DNA from: a virus
Virus record (IMG/VR): IMGVR_UViG_3300020156_000025
Location: 1-64,000 of that record
Reading direction: 5' to 3' (one strand)
Length of the DNA stretch: 64,000 nt
Below are positions 5,000-64,000 of this stretch, one piece after another. The notes beneath the pieces were generated by a model. It made no database searches, had not been told where the DNA came from, and was given only the letters and a program-made list of their open reading frames with translations. A program made the position numbers and the translations under genes. The stretch's first letter is position 1. Each line of letters begins with the position of its first letter.

Positions 5000-5530
5000 A
5001 TGTTCCACGCAACCGCCATGCCCGCCCAAACATTCAATCCCGTGACAGGGAAGTCGTGCGTCAAGCGATACGCCGACATTCCGTTCGCCCACAGGCAGCC
5101 GTTCCACGAGGGGCACTGCCATTTCATCCACGGCCATTCGTGGAGCTTCGAGTTCGAGTTCTCGGCGGACGCGCTGGATCACCGGGGCTTCGTGCAGGAC
5201 TTCGGTGATTTGAAGTGGCTGGGGCAGCTCATCACGGAGAACTTTGATCACGCGCTGGTGTTGCAAGAGGACGATCCGGAGCTGGCGTTCCTGATCCAAG
5301 CCCTGCGGGTGAAGGCGGAAGACCCGCAACACGCGCTGGCCAAATTGACCGTCCTTCCGTCATCGTCGAGTGAGGGGATCGCGGACTGGCTGTTCCAATG
5401 GGTGGGGCCTATGGTCTCGGACCGCTCCGGGGGGAGGGTGAAGTTGGACCGGGTGACGGTGTTCGAGGACTCGCGCAATTCCGCGACCGCGTGGGCACCG
5501 CCGGAGTTCACGGGCCTGATGGCGGGGTAG
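5000..5530 (+). CDS. queD: 6-carboxytetrahydropterin synthase QueD
   Basis: A 176-residue 6-pyruvoyl-tetrahydropterin synthase family protein. It makes 6-carboxy-tetrahydropterin from dihydroneopterin triphosphate, the second step of 7-deazaguanine synthesis. Visible motifs: a zinc-binding His in FAHRQPFHEG, then GHCHFIHGHSW containing the catalytic Cys and the HxH zinc ligands, GFVQDFGDLK, the NFDHAL His, and a PTSEN-equivalent SSSEGIADWLF. Length is slightly above the 120-140 usual. It is followed by queE and folE, an unusual order for one pathway. Confidence 0.85.
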   Translation: MFHATAMPAQTFNPVTGKSCVKRYADIPFAHRQPFHEGHCHFIHGHSWSFEFEFSADALDHRGFVQDFGDLKWLGQLITENFDHALVLQEDDPELAFLIQALRVKAEDPQHALAKLTVLPSSSSEGIADWLFQWVGPMVSDRSGGRVKLDRVTVFEDSRNSATAWAPPEFTGLMAG

Positions 5531-5555
5531 TTCCGCCCGTCCTTCCAAAAACGAT

Positions 5556-5572
5556 TATGCAAACCGTGCAAA
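5556..5572. repeat. Palindrome copy 2 (operator-like)
   Basis: TATGCAAACCGTGCAAA. It contains the proposed queE ATG (5557-5559), so a protein bound here would occlude transcription through the gene start. Confidence 0.75.
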
Positions 5573-6291
5573 TAGAGGAGCGCCGGTTGCTGCCGGTGCA
5601 GGAACGTTTCCATGCCTTCCAAGGGGAGGGCGTCCATATGGGGCGTAGTGCGTTTTTCATCCGCACCTACGGGTGTCCGGTGCAATGCCCGTGGTGCGAT
5701 TCCGCGGGGACGTGGCACCATGCCTACCGGCCCGAGGTGGACAAGCTGCGCATGTCGGTCGAGATGCTGGTGGAGGAGGCGCTGTTCTGCAACGCGGAGT
5801 TCGTGGTCGTGACGGGCGGGGAACCGCTGATCCATGACCTTGCGCCGCTCGTGAATGCGTTGCACGGGGAGGGGATTCAGGTGCATCTGGAGACCTGCGG
5901 TGCGTTCCCGATCAAAGGGGGTGCGATCTTCGACTGGATCACGCTGTCGCCGAAGGACAACCGCCCGCCCTTGAAGCACATGCTGCATCTTGCGGACGAG
6001 TTCAAGATCATCGTGGAGAAGCCGGAGGACATTGAACGGTGGTTCGACGTGATCCTTTACGAGACGAACGAATTGAGGGCGGAGACCGTGCAGGTATGGT
6101 TGCACCCGGAGTGGTCGCAACGGGAGAACCCCGCGGTGCTGGGGGCCATCTGCGAGGCGGTAAAGGGGCGGTCGCAGAAGCCGCGCTTCCGTGCCGGGTG
6201 GCAGATGCACAAACCCTACATGGTGGACGCGGGGGATGCACGGACCGCGCCGCGCGTGCCGCTGGGGGGAGACCCGGCGAGGGGGTATTGA
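5557..6291 (+). CDS. queE: 7-carboxy-7-deazaguanine synthase QueE
   Basis: A 244-residue radical-SAM enzyme that converts 6-carboxytetrahydropterin to 7-carboxy-7-deazaguanine. RFHAFQGEGVHMGRSAFFIR is the QueE N-terminal signature. The cluster motif reads CPVQCPWCDS, a CX3CX2C arrangement with an aromatic before the third Cys, and VVVTGGEPLI binds SAM. An upstream extension to 5398 is possible but lacks family sequence, so the ATG at 5557 is used. The first residues, MQTVQ, are encoded by a copy of the dispersed palindrome. The stop lies one base before a possible folE start at 6293. Confidence 0.88.
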   Translation: MQTVQIEERRLLPVQERFHAFQGEGVHMGRSAFFIRTYGCPVQCPWCDSAGTWHHAYRPEVDKLRMSVEMLVEEALFCNAEFVVVTGGEPLIHDLAPLVNALHGEGIQVHLETCGAFPIKGGAIFDWITLSPKDNRPPLKHMLHLADEFKIIVEKPEDIERWFDVILYETNELRAETVQVWLHPEWSQRENPAVLGAICEAVKGRSQKPRFRAGWQMHKPYMVDAGDARTAPRVPLGGDPARGY

Positions 6292-6308
6292 AATGCACGC
6301 TTTGCAAA
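6292..6308. repeat. Palindrome copy 3 (operator-like)
   Basis: AATGCACGCTTTGCAAA at the queE/folE junction, 20 nt before the preferred folE start. It also contains an alternative folE ATG at 6293. Confidence 0.75.
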
Positions 6309-6328
6309 AACCGATTCAACCGAGACAT

Positions 6329-6955
6329 ATGAAACCGAGGATGTCCCCGGAGGGGGAGAACGAGCAGGTGAGGGCCGCGGAAGCAGGGGTGCGATGCCTC
6401 TTGCATCTGATCGGGGAGAACACGGAGAGGGAGGGGTTGAAGGACACGCCCGCCCGCTTCGTGAAGGCGTTCCGGGAGATGACGGCGGGGTTGCATGTCG
6501 ATCCGAAGCGGCATCTGGAGAAACGGTTCGCGCTGGACGATGCGGAGGAGAGCATCCGGTATGACGGGGTGGTGCTGTCGGGGTGGCTGCCCTTCGTGTC
6601 GCTGTGCGAGCATCACCTGCTGCCGTTCACGGGGGAGGCGCATATCGCCTATCTGCCCGCGGGGAAGGAGAGGACCGTGGTGGGGTTGTCGAAACTGGCC
6701 CGCTTGCTGGAGGACTATGCCCGCAGGCCGCAGATACAGGAACGCTTGACGCAGCAGGTGGCCGATGCGATCGAGACGGTGCTGCGACCGGAGGGGGTCG
6801 GGGTGGTGCTGAGGGGGAAACATTCCTGCCAGTGGTGCCGCGGGGTGAAGAAACCGGGGAGCATGCTCACGTCGTCCTTGCACGGGAGTTTCAAGACGCC
6901 CGCGGGGAGGATGGAGCTGTTCGAGCTAATCAAATTGGCGAAAGGGGGAGAGTAA
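6329..6955 (+). CDS. folE: GTP cyclohydrolase I FolE
   Basis: A 208-residue GTP cyclohydrolase I that makes dihydroneopterin triphosphate, the feeder for QueD. Landmarks: CEHHLLPFTGEAHIAYLP with zinc Cys and catalytic His; VVGLSKLARLLEDYARRPQ, then QERLTQQVADAI; and HSCQWCRGVKKPGSMLTSS with the third zinc-ligand Cys. I use the ATG at 6329 because it follows the AACCGAGACAT leader and gives a normal N terminus; ATG at 6293 would add 12 residues (MHALQK...). It completes folE-queD-queE, but queC and a DNA transglycosylase are not in the window. Confidence 0.87.
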   Translation: MKPRMSPEGENEQVRAAEAGVRCLLHLIGENTEREGLKDTPARFVKAFREMTAGLHVDPKRHLEKRFALDDAEESIRYDGVVLSGWLPFVSLCEHHLLPFTGEAHIAYLPAGKERTVVGLSKLARLLEDYARRPQIQERLTQQVADAIETVLRPEGVGVVLRGKHSCQWCRGVKKPGSMLTSSLHGSFKTPAGRMELFELIKLAKGGE

Positions 6956-6959
6956 GACC

Positions 6960-7640
6960 ATGACGAATGATCCCGATGACGAGCTGGAGCTGAACGCGGC
7001 GGGAGAGGGTGTGATGACCGATTACACCGATGACGACGACGATGACGAGGATGAGGACGAGGGGGGCAACGAGGAGGTGCCGGAACCTCAGAACATCCCC
7101 GTGCGCTCGCGCCGCAGGATGGTGGTGCTGGACCCGGTGGTGGCCCAGCAGAAGGTGCTGAACCTGCGCAAGCAGCGCAGGCAGGACAACAAGGAGCGGT
7201 TCCTGAAGCTGCTGGAGGAGAAACACCTCGGGGTGATATGCTATGCCGCGAAGGAAGCCGGGATTTCGGTCGGAACGATCAACCGGTGGATGCGCACGGA
7301 TCAGAACTTTCACGATCGCGTGCGGATGGTGGAGCACCGGCAGGTGGGCTTCGTGGAGCGGCACCTGTTCCGCGCGGTGGCGAACGGGAACGTGCGCGCG
7401 ATGACGTTTTTCCTGAGCACGAAGGGGGCGAAGCACGGATACGTGCAGGGCTTCGAGTTGCGGACGCCGGAACCGTTGCAGGTGGGGGTGGAGGTATCGA
7501 CACCCGATGTGCGGAAGGAGATGAACGACGAGGTGCTGTCGAAGACGCTGGCCAAGTTGATCGGGATGAGTCCCGAGATGGCCGCGGCCCTGCAATCGAC
7601 GCTGGTGGACAAGATCTCGGACCTTTCGCCGGAGGACTAG
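6960..7640 (+). CDS. terS: Terminase small subunit (probable)
   Basis: A 226-residue protein directly before the large terminase. After an acidic N terminus with a run of Asp residues comes IPVRSRRRM (the PVRSRR motif shared with replication proteins). A helix-turn-helix-like segment, VICYAAKEAGISVGTINRWM, lies around residue 85-105 and fits the DNA-recognition domain of small terminases. The rest is helical, consistent with oligomerisation. It would bind pac/cos DNA and load TerL. Assignment rests on position, HTH and size. Confidence 0.75.
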   Translation: MTNDPDDELELNAAGEGVMTDYTDDDDDDEDEDEGGNEEVPEPQNIPVRSRRRMVVLDPVVAQQKVLNLRKQRRQDNKERFLKLLEEKHLGVICYAAKEAGISVGTINRWMRTDQNFHDRVRMVEHRQVGFVERHLFRAVANGNVRAMTFFLSTKGAKHGYVQGFELRTPEPLQVGVEVSTPDVRKEMNDEVLSKTLAKLIGMSPEMAAALQSTLVDKISDLSPED

Positions 7641-7647
7641 GACGGCC

Positions 7648-9114
7648 ATGAATCCGATGCTTACGGACAAGCAATACGCGGAGGTCTATAACCGGATGGT
7701 GCTGGCCGCGCGGCAATGTTTCATCACGTTCCTGTATCTCATGTTCCCGCAGGGGATGCCGGAGACGACATACAAGCTCGCGCCCTTGCACCTGTTCCTC
7801 GCGCAGAAGGTGATGCAGGCGTTCAGGCGTGAGGGGGCGAAGAACCGCGCGGTGTCGGTGCCGCCCCAGCACGGGAAAAGCCGGATGCTGGTGGTGAGGA
7901 CCGTGGCGTGGTTGATCGGGGCAAGGCCGGGAATCTCGATCGCCATTACCGGGTTCTCGCACTCGCTGCTGGTGGATTTCCTCAAGGAGGTGGAGGACCT
8001 GATGCAGACGCCCGCCTACCAGAGGATATTCCCGGGGGTGGTGCCGCGCTATGGACGGAACCGCGACGCGTCGAAATATTTCACGAACGGGGCATCGGTG
8101 GTGGCGAAGGCCGCGGGGTCTAAGCTGACGGGACGCCGGGTGGACTGGCTGATCATCGACGACGCGCACGCGGGACGGGCGGAGGCGGAGTCGGAGGTGC
8201 TGCGGAGCAAGGTGATCCAGTGGTTTTTCGCCGACTGCAAAACCCGCCTTTCGCAGGGGGCGCAGGTGTTCATCATCGGAACGAGATGGCATCCGGCGGA
8301 CCTGATCGGGTTCCTGACTTCGGACGAATACACGAAGCAGTTGAAGGACGCGGGACACGAGGAGGAGTTGTTCGAGGTGACGAACCTGCGCGCGATTTCG
8401 GAGGAGGGGGAGGAGGACCCGCTGGGGCGCGCGCCCGGGGAAGCGTTGTTCCCGGAGGAGCGACCGTTGCGGATGATGCAGGCACTCAAGGCCGCTCTTC
8501 CCGGATACGAGTGGGATTCGCAATACCGGGGGTCGCCGCGCTCGACGATGGGCGGGCAGGTGGACATATCCAAGCTGCGCTATCTGGACGCGGGGGCGGT
8601 GCCGTGGGACTACCTCGACGTGGCGCGGGGATGGGACTTGGCCATCTCGGAAAAGCAGGGGGCGGACTATACGGCGGGGGCGCTGGTGGGGAGGCACCGG
8701 CATACGGGGGACTACTATATCATCGACATGTTCCGGCGGAGGATGGCGTGGTCGAAACTGCGGGCGAACATGGTCAACGTGTCGCTGGAGGACCGCAGGG
8801 TGCGGAACGTGATGCGGGTGGGAATCGAAGGGGTGGCGGGATTCGACGTGGTATTTTCCGAGGTCCGGGACCTGCTGCTGGGAGAGGTGCAGGTGCTCAA
8901 GAAGAATCCGCCGAAGGGCGGGAAGTTGATCCGCGCGCAACCGTGGCTGAACCGGATCGAGGGTGGCAAGGTGTGGGTGGTGAACGGGCCGTGGAAAAAG
9001 GACTTTCTGGAGGAGCTGTTGCAGTTCCCGGAAGGCTCGCACGATGACCAGGTAGACGCGGTGTCGATCGGGTTCGAGATGCTGGAGCATCGCGAGAAAC
9101 TGCTGATCGCATAA
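7648..9114 (+). CDS. terL: Terminase large subunit
   Basis: A 488-residue packaging motor. Walker A is VPPQHGKSRM at about residue 70-79, Walker B WLIIDDAH at about 167-174, coupling motif IIGTRWHP at about 210. The C-terminal RNase H-like nuclease has RGWDLAISEK at about 327 with the first metal-binding Asp and HDDQVDAVSIGFE near 465 with the last acidic residues. It translocates DNA into the prohead and cuts concatemers. GGAGGA lies just upstream of the ATG, one of the few good Shine-Dalgarno sequences here. Confidence 0.93.
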   Translation: MNPMLTDKQYAEVYNRMVLAARQCFITFLYLMFPQGMPETTYKLAPLHLFLAQKVMQAFRREGAKNRAVSVPPQHGKSRMLVVRTVAWLIGARPGISIAITGFSHSLLVDFLKEVEDLMQTPAYQRIFPGVVPRYGRNRDASKYFTNGASVVAKAAGSKLTGRRVDWLIIDDAHAGRAEAESEVLRSKVIQWFFADCKTRLSQGAQVFIIGTRWHPADLIGFLTSDEYTKQLKDAGHEEELFEVTNLRAISEEGEEDPLGRAPGEALFPEERPLRMMQALKAALPGYEWDSQYRGSPRSTMGGQVDISKLRYLDAGAVPWDYLDVARGWDLAISEKQGADYTAGALVGRHRHTGDYYIIDMFRRRMAWSKLRANMVNVSLEDRRVRNVMRVGIEGVAGFDVVFSEVRDLLLGEVQVLKKNPPKGGKLIRAQPWLNRIEGGKVWVVNGPWKKDFLEELLQFPEGSHDDQVDAVSIGFEMLEHREKLLIA

Positions 9115-11815: not shown

Positions 11816-11846
11816 CCGTCAAGCCCCCGGAAGGGTATTGGCGGGC

Positions 11847-12428
11847 ATGCAAGTGAACCGCGATAAAGGGGTGATCGTGTTGAACAATCCCCGGACGGGG
11901 GGGCCTTCGGTTGCTCGCCTGATGGGGTGCGCCCCGATCGATCCGGGGGCGGTGCATCTCACGTCGAAGGAGGCCCGGGCCTCGGTGTCCGCGGAGGAGT
12001 GGCGGGAGTGGACGAAGATCGTCACCGTGCGTGATCCGGTGGAGCGGTTCAGGTCAACGTGCGCGGCCCTCGGGGTGGAGCCGGGGCAGGCGCTGGAAAC
12101 TCTGGAAGCAACCCCGGTGGATGAATGGGACCGGGTGTGGGGGCATCAAGTGCGCTGGCTCGCGGGCAAGCTGGACGTGGTGCTGCTGACCCGGCATATC
12201 GCGAACTTCGCGAACCACGGGCAGTTCGGACGGGGCACGGTGCGCAGTAACGAGACCGGGGCTGGGAGAGCGGGAGGAACGACCCCGGGACTGGAGGAGA
12301 GGGTAAGGGCGCTGTATGCGGTGGACTATGCCAAGTTCGAGAAGCTCCGGCTGTGGCACCCCGACCCGGAGGTGGTCATGTTCGTGGGCGGGGAATGCGT
12401 GGCGTGCCGCGCGCAACGGAAGCGCTAA
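11847..12428 (+). CDS. Sulfotransferase-like protein (second)
   Basis: A 193-residue protein with a degenerate PAPS-binding loop NNPRTGGPSVARLM near residues 13-26 and a 3'-phosphate-like motif TVRDPVERFRSTCAAL near 60. The second loop residue pattern (GGPS instead of GSTA) is a departure that could weaken cofactor binding. GGAAGGG sits 12 nt upstream of the ATG; an in-frame TTG at 11838 is less likely. The C terminus has a C-V-A-C pair. Acceptor unknown. Confidence 0.6.
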   Translation: MQVNRDKGVIVLNNPRTGGPSVARLMGCAPIDPGAVHLTSKEARASVSAEEWREWTKIVTVRDPVERFRSTCAALGVEPGQALETLEATPVDEWDRVWGHQVRWLAGKLDVVLLTRHIANFANHGQFGRGTVRSNETGAGRAGGTTPGLEERVRALYAVDYAKFEKLRLWHPDPEVVMFVGGECVACRAQRKR

Positions 12429-16884: not shown

Positions 16885-17730
16885 ATGCCATTCCAAATTT
16901 TCAAGGGAGCCGTGCCGTCGGCCATCAAAGGGGTGCCGACGCAAGCCGAATTAGTGTCGCCCTTGAAAGGGAAGACGGTGTTTTTCCGCAATGCCGCCGG
17001 GGTGCTGATCGCGGGGCTGGTGGCGTCGCACGAGAAGGGTGCCAAGTATGCCGACGTGCGGCTTGCCGTGCCGTCTCCGGAAGGGGTGTTGATGGTGGGC
17101 AAGGACGCGGTGCCCGTGGAAGCCGGGCAATTGACCGTGAAGGACGCCGTGTTCGAGGAGCGCAAGCTGGCGGCGTGGACAAGCAACCGCGAGGTGGAAC
17201 TGGACGGGAAGGCACTCGCCGTGAAAGACAAGGAGACCGGGGTAATCACCGATTACAAACAGGTCATGTTCGCGGGTTACGGGTCCACGTTCGTCAATGT
17301 CACGGAGTCCGACCGGGTGGGGGACTACGTGCTGCCCGGAGCGTTCAAGGAGACGATCCGCGAATTCAAGAAGAACCCGGTAATGCTGGTCGATCACCGC
17401 AATTCCGTGCGCGAGATCGCGGGAAGTTACTCGGACATCCGCGAGGACGATGCCGGGTTGCGGCTCGTGGGGAAGGTGTCGGATGCGCCGGGGCTTACCG
17501 ATGTCCGTTTCTTGCTGATGGAAAGACACCTGCGCACCCTTAGCATGGGAGGTATATTCATCTACCTGCCCGACGGGCGGGGGATCGAGAAGGTGTATCT
17601 TTTCGAGGTGTCGCTGGTGGCGATTCCCGCCAATCCGGATGCGCTGATCGAGGCGCGCGGACTGGACGTGGAGACCGCCGGTAAGGCGTTCGAGTGGCAC
17701 GCCGCCGCGTTCAAGGGAGCCAAGGCATAG
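16885..17730 (+). CDS. Prohead maturation protease (S78, HK97 type)
   Basis: A 281-residue protein. The S78 core starts near residue 130: FAGYGSTFVNVTESDRVGDY, then LPGAFKETIREF, MLVDHRNSVREIAG with the catalytic His, and LRTLSMGGIFIY with the probable catalytic Ser. It ends with LFEVSLVAIPANPDALIEAR, the family hallmark. It cleaves the N-terminal delta/scaffold part of capsid protein after prohead assembly. The first 120 residues are an extra N-terminal domain, longer than in HK97 gp4. Its 3' end overlaps the convergent GT11 gene by 20 bp. Confidence 0.88.
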   Translation: MPFQIFKGAVPSAIKGVPTQAELVSPLKGKTVFFRNAAGVLIAGLVASHEKGAKYADVRLAVPSPEGVLMVGKDAVPVEAGQLTVKDAVFEERKLAAWTSNREVELDGKALAVKDKETGVITDYKQVMFAGYGSTFVNVTESDRVGDYVLPGAFKETIREFKKNPVMLVDHRNSVREIAGSYSDIREDDAGLRLVGKVSDAPGLTDVRFLLMERHLRTLSMGGIFIYLPDGRGIEKVYLFEVSLVAIPANPDALIEARGLDVETAGKAFEWHAAAFKGAKA

Positions 17731-18367
17731 GAGCGTTGGCCGTCCACACGGGGGGCGGAAGCACGCAGGGAATTTCACCCAAAAACGCGGCCCACCACGA
17801 ATAGGTGGAGTTCGCCATGACAAGGGAACGGGCGTTCGCCATCTCGACAAAGGCGTCGCCCGTTTCCATTTCCATCTCGGGAAGGATCGTGCGGGCGTAA
17901 GCGGTATCGTCGGTGAAGACCTTCACCCACTCGCCCGGGGCGTTCAGCATCTGGCGGCGATACCACTCGCCTAGGATCTCGGGGTATAGGTGGCGCTGAT
18001 TCTCGTAGTCGCCGCCGCGAATGTGGATCGCGCAAAGGTCGGGGTGGCGCTCGGGGGTCCAGAAACGGAACAGTTCGCGAATCTCGGCGGGATTGCTCCA
18101 GTAGGAGGGGTCCTGCCAGTAGCCGCGCAGGACCACGGAATGATTGCCGGGAACCTGCCCCTTGTGAATGCGCCGGTAGAAGGTGTCCGCGTAGGTGGCA
18201 GGGGGAAGTCCCTGCCCGGCGAACCACGGGAGGGAAAAATCCAGCATCAGTTGCGCGCCCATCCGCTGTGCGGTCTCGTAGGCGTGCGCGATCTGGAACA
18301 GTTGATTGCCGAGTCCGCCTTGCAGATGGGGGATCACGACGCCGCGGGAATGTGTCTGAGGTAGCAT
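17711..18367 (-). CDS. GT11-family fucosyltransferase-like protein
   Basis: The only clear reverse-strand gene. From ATG at 18367 it encodes 218 residues with GT11 (alpha-1,2-fucosyltransferase) motifs: GGLGNQLFQIAHAYETA near the N terminus for nucleotide-sugar binding, HIRGGDY in the middle (the HxRxxD donor motif), FTDD, and ANSTYSWWAAFLGE near the C terminus. Such enzymes add fucose or a related deoxy-sugar to galactose. A longer start at 18397 is possible, but a candidate promoter overlaps it. Insertion between protease and capsid, with its own promoter on the other strand, is typical of a moron gene. The target could be host surface glycan or a virion glycan. Confidence 0.82.
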   Translation of the reverse strand: MLPQTHSRGVVIPHLQGGLGNQLFQIAHAYETAQRMGAQLMLDFSLPWFAGQGLPPATYADTFYRRIHKGQVPGNHSVVLRGYWQDPSYWSNPAEIRELFRFWTPERHPDLCAIHIRGGDYENQRHLYPEILGEWYRRQMLNAPGEWVKVFTDDTAYARTILPEMEMETGDAFVEMANARSLVMANSTYSWWAAFLGEIPCVLPPPVWTANAPMPWLP

Positions 18368-18376
18368 GCGGGGGAG

Positions 18377-18405
18377 AGAATGACCCGAAGCGAACATTGA
18401 CTCAA
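18377..18405 (-). promoter_or_regulatory. Candidate reverse promoter for GT11 gene
   Basis: Read on the minus strand: TTGAGT, a 17-bp spacer, CATTCT, then 9 nt to the ATG at 18367. It is the leftward half of a divergent control region containing palindrome copy 6. Confidence 0.35.
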
Positions 18406-63991: not shown

Positions 63992-64000
63992 ACCTCGACT

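Follow-up and report, generated by a model that had tools for sequence, protein, structure and literature searches.

A predicted 7-deazaguanine DNA modification pathway with a divergent QueC in an uncultured phage

Replacement of guanine by a modified base is a well-known route by which phages escape bacterial restriction enzymes. The uncultured virus described here probably encodes its own post-replicative system of this kind, in which CDG is converted to preQ0 (or ADG) and inserted by the transglycosylase DpdA to confer restriction resistance, a reading to which we assign a probability of about 0.7. According to this scheme, FolE, QueD and QueE would convert GTP to CDG, a phage QueC-family enzyme would carry CDG on to preQ0 or stop at the amide ADG, and DpdA would exchange guanines in the phage DNA for preQ0 or ADG. 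A ParB-like protein encoded near dpdA would probably assist or target DpdA, and the modified DNA would resist host restriction enzymes, a protective effect extrapolated from published phages. The reading is built on gene presence, motifs, synteny and family membership, from which we infer enzymatic activity, the exact base and the role of the ParB-like protein. The pathway is ordinary in kind and fuller than the initial annotation saw, and one of its enzymes, QueC, is unusual.

The window analysed, a 64,000-base stretch, comprises bases 1-64000 of an 89,984-base viral record, and the numbering of window and record agrees. Within it queD, queE and folE stand in a row on the plus strand, directly followed by the two terminase genes (Table 1). 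The initial annotation had placed these three genes beside the terminase and described their products as making CDG en route to preQ0, and both points are borne out by strong family matches in each of three libraries (Pfam, PHROGs and NCBIfam) and by intact motifs: the metal motif of QueD reads CHFIHGH, the Fe-S motif of QueE reads CPVQCPWC, and the metal-site residues of FolE are present in CEHH and SCQWCRG. FolE clears its NCBIfam cut-off; QueD and QueE stay under theirs (the E. coli-type QueE match, at 7.2e-29, falls below the curated value), and we take these lower scores to mark divergent phage versions. Translation of queE may in fact begin at a TTG near 5587, preceded by AGAGGAG. The queD-queE-folE-terS-terL block recurs in the IMG/VR viral contigs L014-L019, some of which are near-copies of one another, with identities of 37-56% for queD, 47-55% for queE, 56-59% for folE and 46-58% for terL; because of this recurrence, the arrangement is not due to chance.

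Table 1. Positions of the pathway genes, their neighbours and two palindrome copies (window or record numbering)
Feature	Position	Strand	Evidence
queD, 6-carboxytetrahydropterin synthase	5000..5530	+	Pfam PTPS 3.3e-25; phrog_2389 QueD 4.1e-33; CxxxHGH
Palindrome copy, queD/queE junction	5555..5573		palindrome match
queE, CDG synthase, radical SAM	5557..6291	+	phrog_2076 3.8e-37; NCBIfam models up to 7.2e-29; CxxxCxxC
Palindrome copy, queE/folE junction	6291..6309		palindrome match; copy also there in L017-L019
folE, GTP cyclohydrolase I	6329..6955 (start about)	+	Pfam 3.9e-56; NCBIfam FolE 3.9e-59
Terminase small subunit, terS	6960..7640	+	phrog_4044 2.3e-6; same position in relatives
Terminase large subunit, terL	7648..9114	+	phrog_38 1.7e-81; 46-58% identity in que-block relatives
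ParB-like gene	record 76742-77590	+	ParB-like domain; near dpdA
dpdA, DNA-guanine transglycosylase	record 78475-79425	+	phrog_887 7.3e-14
858-codon frame with QueC domain as C-terminal part	record 86779-89355; domain 88498-89115	+	PF06508 3.6e-15; phrog_1550 2.3e-23

The pathway had been described as partial, with queC and dpdA possibly outside the window. The first statement is true of the 64-kb window only and reflects where that window ends; the second proved correct, in that a search of the rest of the record located a QueC domain, DpdA and a ParB-like gene beyond position 64000. The absence of QueC and DpdA was thus rejected, and their presence in the same record supports the assignment of the three window genes to a phage DNA-modification pathway. 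The record's final ten bases, ACGGGGAGAA, are identical to its first ten, and when the ends are joined, the gene cut short at the record's end continues to a TAA shortly 5' of the first ATG (position 33); from this overlap and the gene continuing across the join, the record probably represents a circularly permuted genome of about 89,974 bases that is essentially complete. On such a circular map, the distance upstream from queD would probably be about 6 kb to queC and about 15-16 kb to dpdA, neither of which adjoins queD-queE-folE in this phage. Between dpdA and queC sits a gene for an AlkB-like 2-oxoglutarate dioxygenase (record 84330-85082, L003:5330-6079; PF13532, 3.3e-15), whose role may be repair or base hypermodification.

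DpdA shows low sequence identity (22-31%) to its nearest relatives and phage homologues, and a single-protein search of IMG/VR returned no close relatives. The family matched, phrog_887, is named queuine tRNA-ribosyltransferase and also takes in DpdA from L014, L016 and L017. Residues D88, H224 and D243 are invariant in an alignment with the CAjan, VpKK5 and Typha homologues, and the family profile retrieves a single solved structure, that of the DNA-guanine transglycosylase 7ui4 (1.2e-4). Structure prediction was run on the L017 relative, which is 31% identical to the phage DpdA: the core of the model has a pLDDT of about 90 or more, and every PDB match at E<=0.001, seven in total, is a tRNA-guanine transglycosylase, with TM-scores that are low (about 0.3-0.4), partly from poorly modelled ends. 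The core of the L017 relative, which is TGT-like, is thus predicted with confidence. A 2023 paper by Cui et al. reportedly defines DpdA3/4 and DpdL/M/N.

The QueC domain keeps the ATP loop SGGxDS (as SGGFDS), the VPxRN loop (as IPMRN) and the zinc cysteines, the latter in a cluster reading C-x9-CGTCLAC, with C-x9 replacing C-x8. Canonical QueC (cluster 1 of PF06508 in PMC13329287) also has two substrate motifs, YxQxHxxE and YPDC; these are absent here, and VGMEHGY and KERDKSEEF stand in their place. Most of the sampled phage QueC proteins carry YGQ and YPDC, and both motifs are gone in the QueC of this phage, of Stenotrophomonas phage Moby, of L014 (first copy), of L034 and of L050. In this "DK type", DK(S/N/D)xxF occupies the PDCxxxF position, and the ATP loop, RN loop and zinc cysteines are retained. 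The five sequences form one clade with support of 96/97, and none of 500 label shuffles was equally clustered, in a tree with long branches for which the motif columns were kept in the alignment. Arthrobacter phage Sonali was considered as a further DK-type relative and rejected, its QueC being canonical. A PDB search with the domain alone returned only a spurious designed protein. A domain of about 75 residues occurs twice in the N-terminal part of the frame (record 86779-88440) and is found in the uncharacterized phage families phrog_16354 and phrog_25460. One palindrome copy, at 88436, lies inside the frame just 5' of the QueC domain, so that internal initiation of this domain is possible. 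In E. coli QueC, Y35A or Y131A abolishes function (PMC13329287). On the simplest reading, the phage QueC is divergent yet still makes preQ0 or ADG.

With QueC present, the lack of any match in the record to QueF (PF14489), GATase_6 (PF13522) and DUF5591 (PF17884; ArcS-type), divergent forms of which could escape such searches, and to the YaaA/DpdC type (PF03883) points to dPreQ0 (or dADG) as the predicted DNA base, by analogy with CAjan and Rosebush. Among candidate products, preQ1 and G+ were rejected on the absence of the first three families, as was a DpdC-type step from dPreQ0 to dADG on the absence of PF03883. Phages that encode DpdA plus FolE, QueD, QueE and QueC and no amidotransferase carry dPreQ0; mass spectrometry places the base at about 28% of G in Rosebush and about 32% in CAjan, and deletion of dpdA in CAjan abolishes it (PMC6884629).

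A rather unlikely alternative is that the chemistry of DK-type QueC has changed, the inserted base being ADG or another CDG amide and the rest of the pathway remaining as proposed. The joint loss of both substrate motifs from proteins that keep SGGxDS, IPMRN and the zinc cysteines favors such a change, as does the single clade that these proteins form. There are also precedents for the chemistry: QatC and Cap9, which are related to QueC, couple CDG to amines of proteins (PMC13329287), and CmoY, an amide ligase from phage, decorates DNA at a carboxyl handle (PMC12783734). However, the DK type is the sole QueC found in L034, L050 and this phage, and Moby has no other QueC nearby, a distribution that also fits a plain preQ0-making replacement; the branches on which the clade rests are, moreover, long. 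That the clade represents a distinct enzyme, converting CDG to a non-preQ0 7-deazaguanine (e.g. an undescribed amide) that DpdA would write into DNA, we hold to be distinctly improbable.

Insertion of CDG itself, with the pathway ending at QueE, had been entertained in the initial annotation and is not supported. FolE, QueD, QueE and DpdA are all intact, the phage QueC is without two motifs that the E. coli enzyme needs, and queC-less phages such as Bipper have been suggested to carry CDG (PMC6884629); Typha, too, matches the gene order apart from lacking queC. It is such queC-less phages, Bipper or Typha, that this explanation fits better, whereas the present phage encodes a member of the QueC family whose ATP and zinc motifs are intact, which makes CDG insertion very unlikely here. 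A role in boosting host tRNA queuosine in place of DNA modification, as proposed for pathway-bearing phages without DpdA (PMC6884629), is extremely unlikely in this case, in view of a DpdA related to phage DNA transglycosylases and of the failure to find QueF. Insertion of preQ0 or ADG into DNA by DpdA remains our preferred reading, although three points speak against it: the loss of both substrate motifs from QueC, the placement of dpdA and queC apart from queD-queE-folE, and the low identity of DpdA to its relatives and homologues.

The ParB-like gene is separated from dpdA by a gene for a 226-aa protein in this phage, and lies immediately 5' of dpdA in 28 of the 46 loci with sufficient upstream sequence; within those loci 28 of the 33 ParB-like matches adjoin dpdA. 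These counts come from loci chosen by folE and queE, some of which nearly duplicate one another, and phages commonly carry ParB-like domains. The proteins of this phage and of L017 match the ParB part and the start of phrog_498, annotated as DNA methyltransferase, and the expected DPPY site reads DPFC or PSPH, for which reason the protein can be interpreted as a ParB-methyltransferase with a decayed catalytic half. A PADLOC search gave no model match to DpdB, the ParB-like ATPase partner in the bacterial Dpd system (PMC12839542). A phage ParB gene was earlier proposed as a DpdB homologue in the CRB2 paper (PMC6392294), and other phage DNA-modifying enzymes are also accompanied by ParB domains (PMC12783734). 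The present loci strengthen the link between ParB-like proteins and such enzymes.

Several other features of the record were observed. With up to 3 mismatches allowed, an imperfect palindrome, TTTTGCA-N5-TGCAAAA, is matched 36 times in the whole record, compared with 0-3 times in first-order random sequence having equal make-up; examples lie at 925, 5555, 6291, 9876, 13966, 20360, 24002, 37845, 51552, 72667, 77789, 79426 and 88436. Many copies stand at gene starts or junctions, the palindrome is also found in L016-L019, and it resembles an operator or promoter of the phage. A short peptide, PVRSR(R/K/T/N), turns up repeatedly in some ten proteins unrelated to one another. Several of these seem to handle DNA, among them the terminase small subunit, a DNA polymerase and RecA-like and RuvC-like proteins; copies lie at 7098, 50417, 55603, 55654, 57942, 58425, 60740 and 61743 and at record positions 64490, 68529, 69225, 69282 and 69360. 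Because codons differ between copies (CGC TCG CGC CGC vs AGG AGC AGG AGA), the peptide and not the DNA seems to be conserved; it was not seen as a recurrent motif in related loci. Similarly, (K/R)xIRLD or a near-form ends several unrelated proteins (42076; record 68565, 72635 and 73368; similar near 84317) with partly different codons. A glycosyltransferase family 11 gene (17711-18397, minus strand; PF01531, 9.7e-6) runs opposite to its neighbours in the structural gene region, and two proteins with PRTGS/PRTGG and RDP motifs, encoded at 188-952 and 11838-12428, look like sulfotransferases, the former having no Pfam match.

Among the relatives, L017 and L019 carry parB, dpdA, queC, queD, queE, folE, terS and terL contiguously in that order, with variants in L014, L016 and L021. 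Judged by this synteny, the arrangement is an established phage cassette that has been loosened in the present phage. L014 has two QueC-like genes and L021 two DpdA-like genes; L016 carries Gat-QueC, and dG+ is therefore predicted there. No QueD was found in the TerL relatives L004 and L005 (the latter close in terL), both possibly fragmentary records, so the pathway seems variable in this TerL group. These findings extend the set of guanine-rewriting phages by an uncultured virus group. They also raise the question of why one phage QueC clade, whose members occur alongside further 7-deazaguanine genes, lost two motifs regarded as necessary for making preQ0, and of which base the phages bearing it carry.

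The pathway can be compared with several known systems. The bacterial Dpd system (PMC12839542) likewise pairs a transglycosylase, DpdA, with a ParB-like partner, the ATPase DpdB, but it is a restriction-modification-like defence, whereas the neighbourhood of dpdA in this phage showed no restriction genes and ATPase activity of the phage ParB-like protein is putative. Menderavirus, represented by the Stenotrophomonas phages Moby and Ps15, shares the DK-type QueC (Moby), whose gene has those for a transglycosylase and QueE next to it and folE not far off, and in Ps15 QueD is encoded at a distance (PMC9025141); unlike this phage, these are T4-like phages of 160 kb with an unfused QueC, a different transglycosylase and no annotated ParB gene closer than 9 kb to queC. 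Mycobacterium phage Typha (NC_054393) shares the order ParB-like gene, dpdA, queD, queE, folE, small gene, terminase and portal; its cluster has no annotated queC, and in the present phage dpdA and queC have moved away and the 226-aa gene intervenes between parB and dpdA. Relative to CAjan and Rosebush, the second, preQ0-DpdA group of Hutinet et al. 2019 (PMC6884629), this phage differs in its DK-type QueC set in an 858-codon frame, in the siting of dpdA and queC away from queD-queE-folE, and in a ParB-like gene near dpdA that is absent from the annotated CAjan dpdA neighbourhood; the likeness lies in the absence of an amidotransferase and in the shared set of FolE, QueD, QueE, a QueC-family protein and DpdA.
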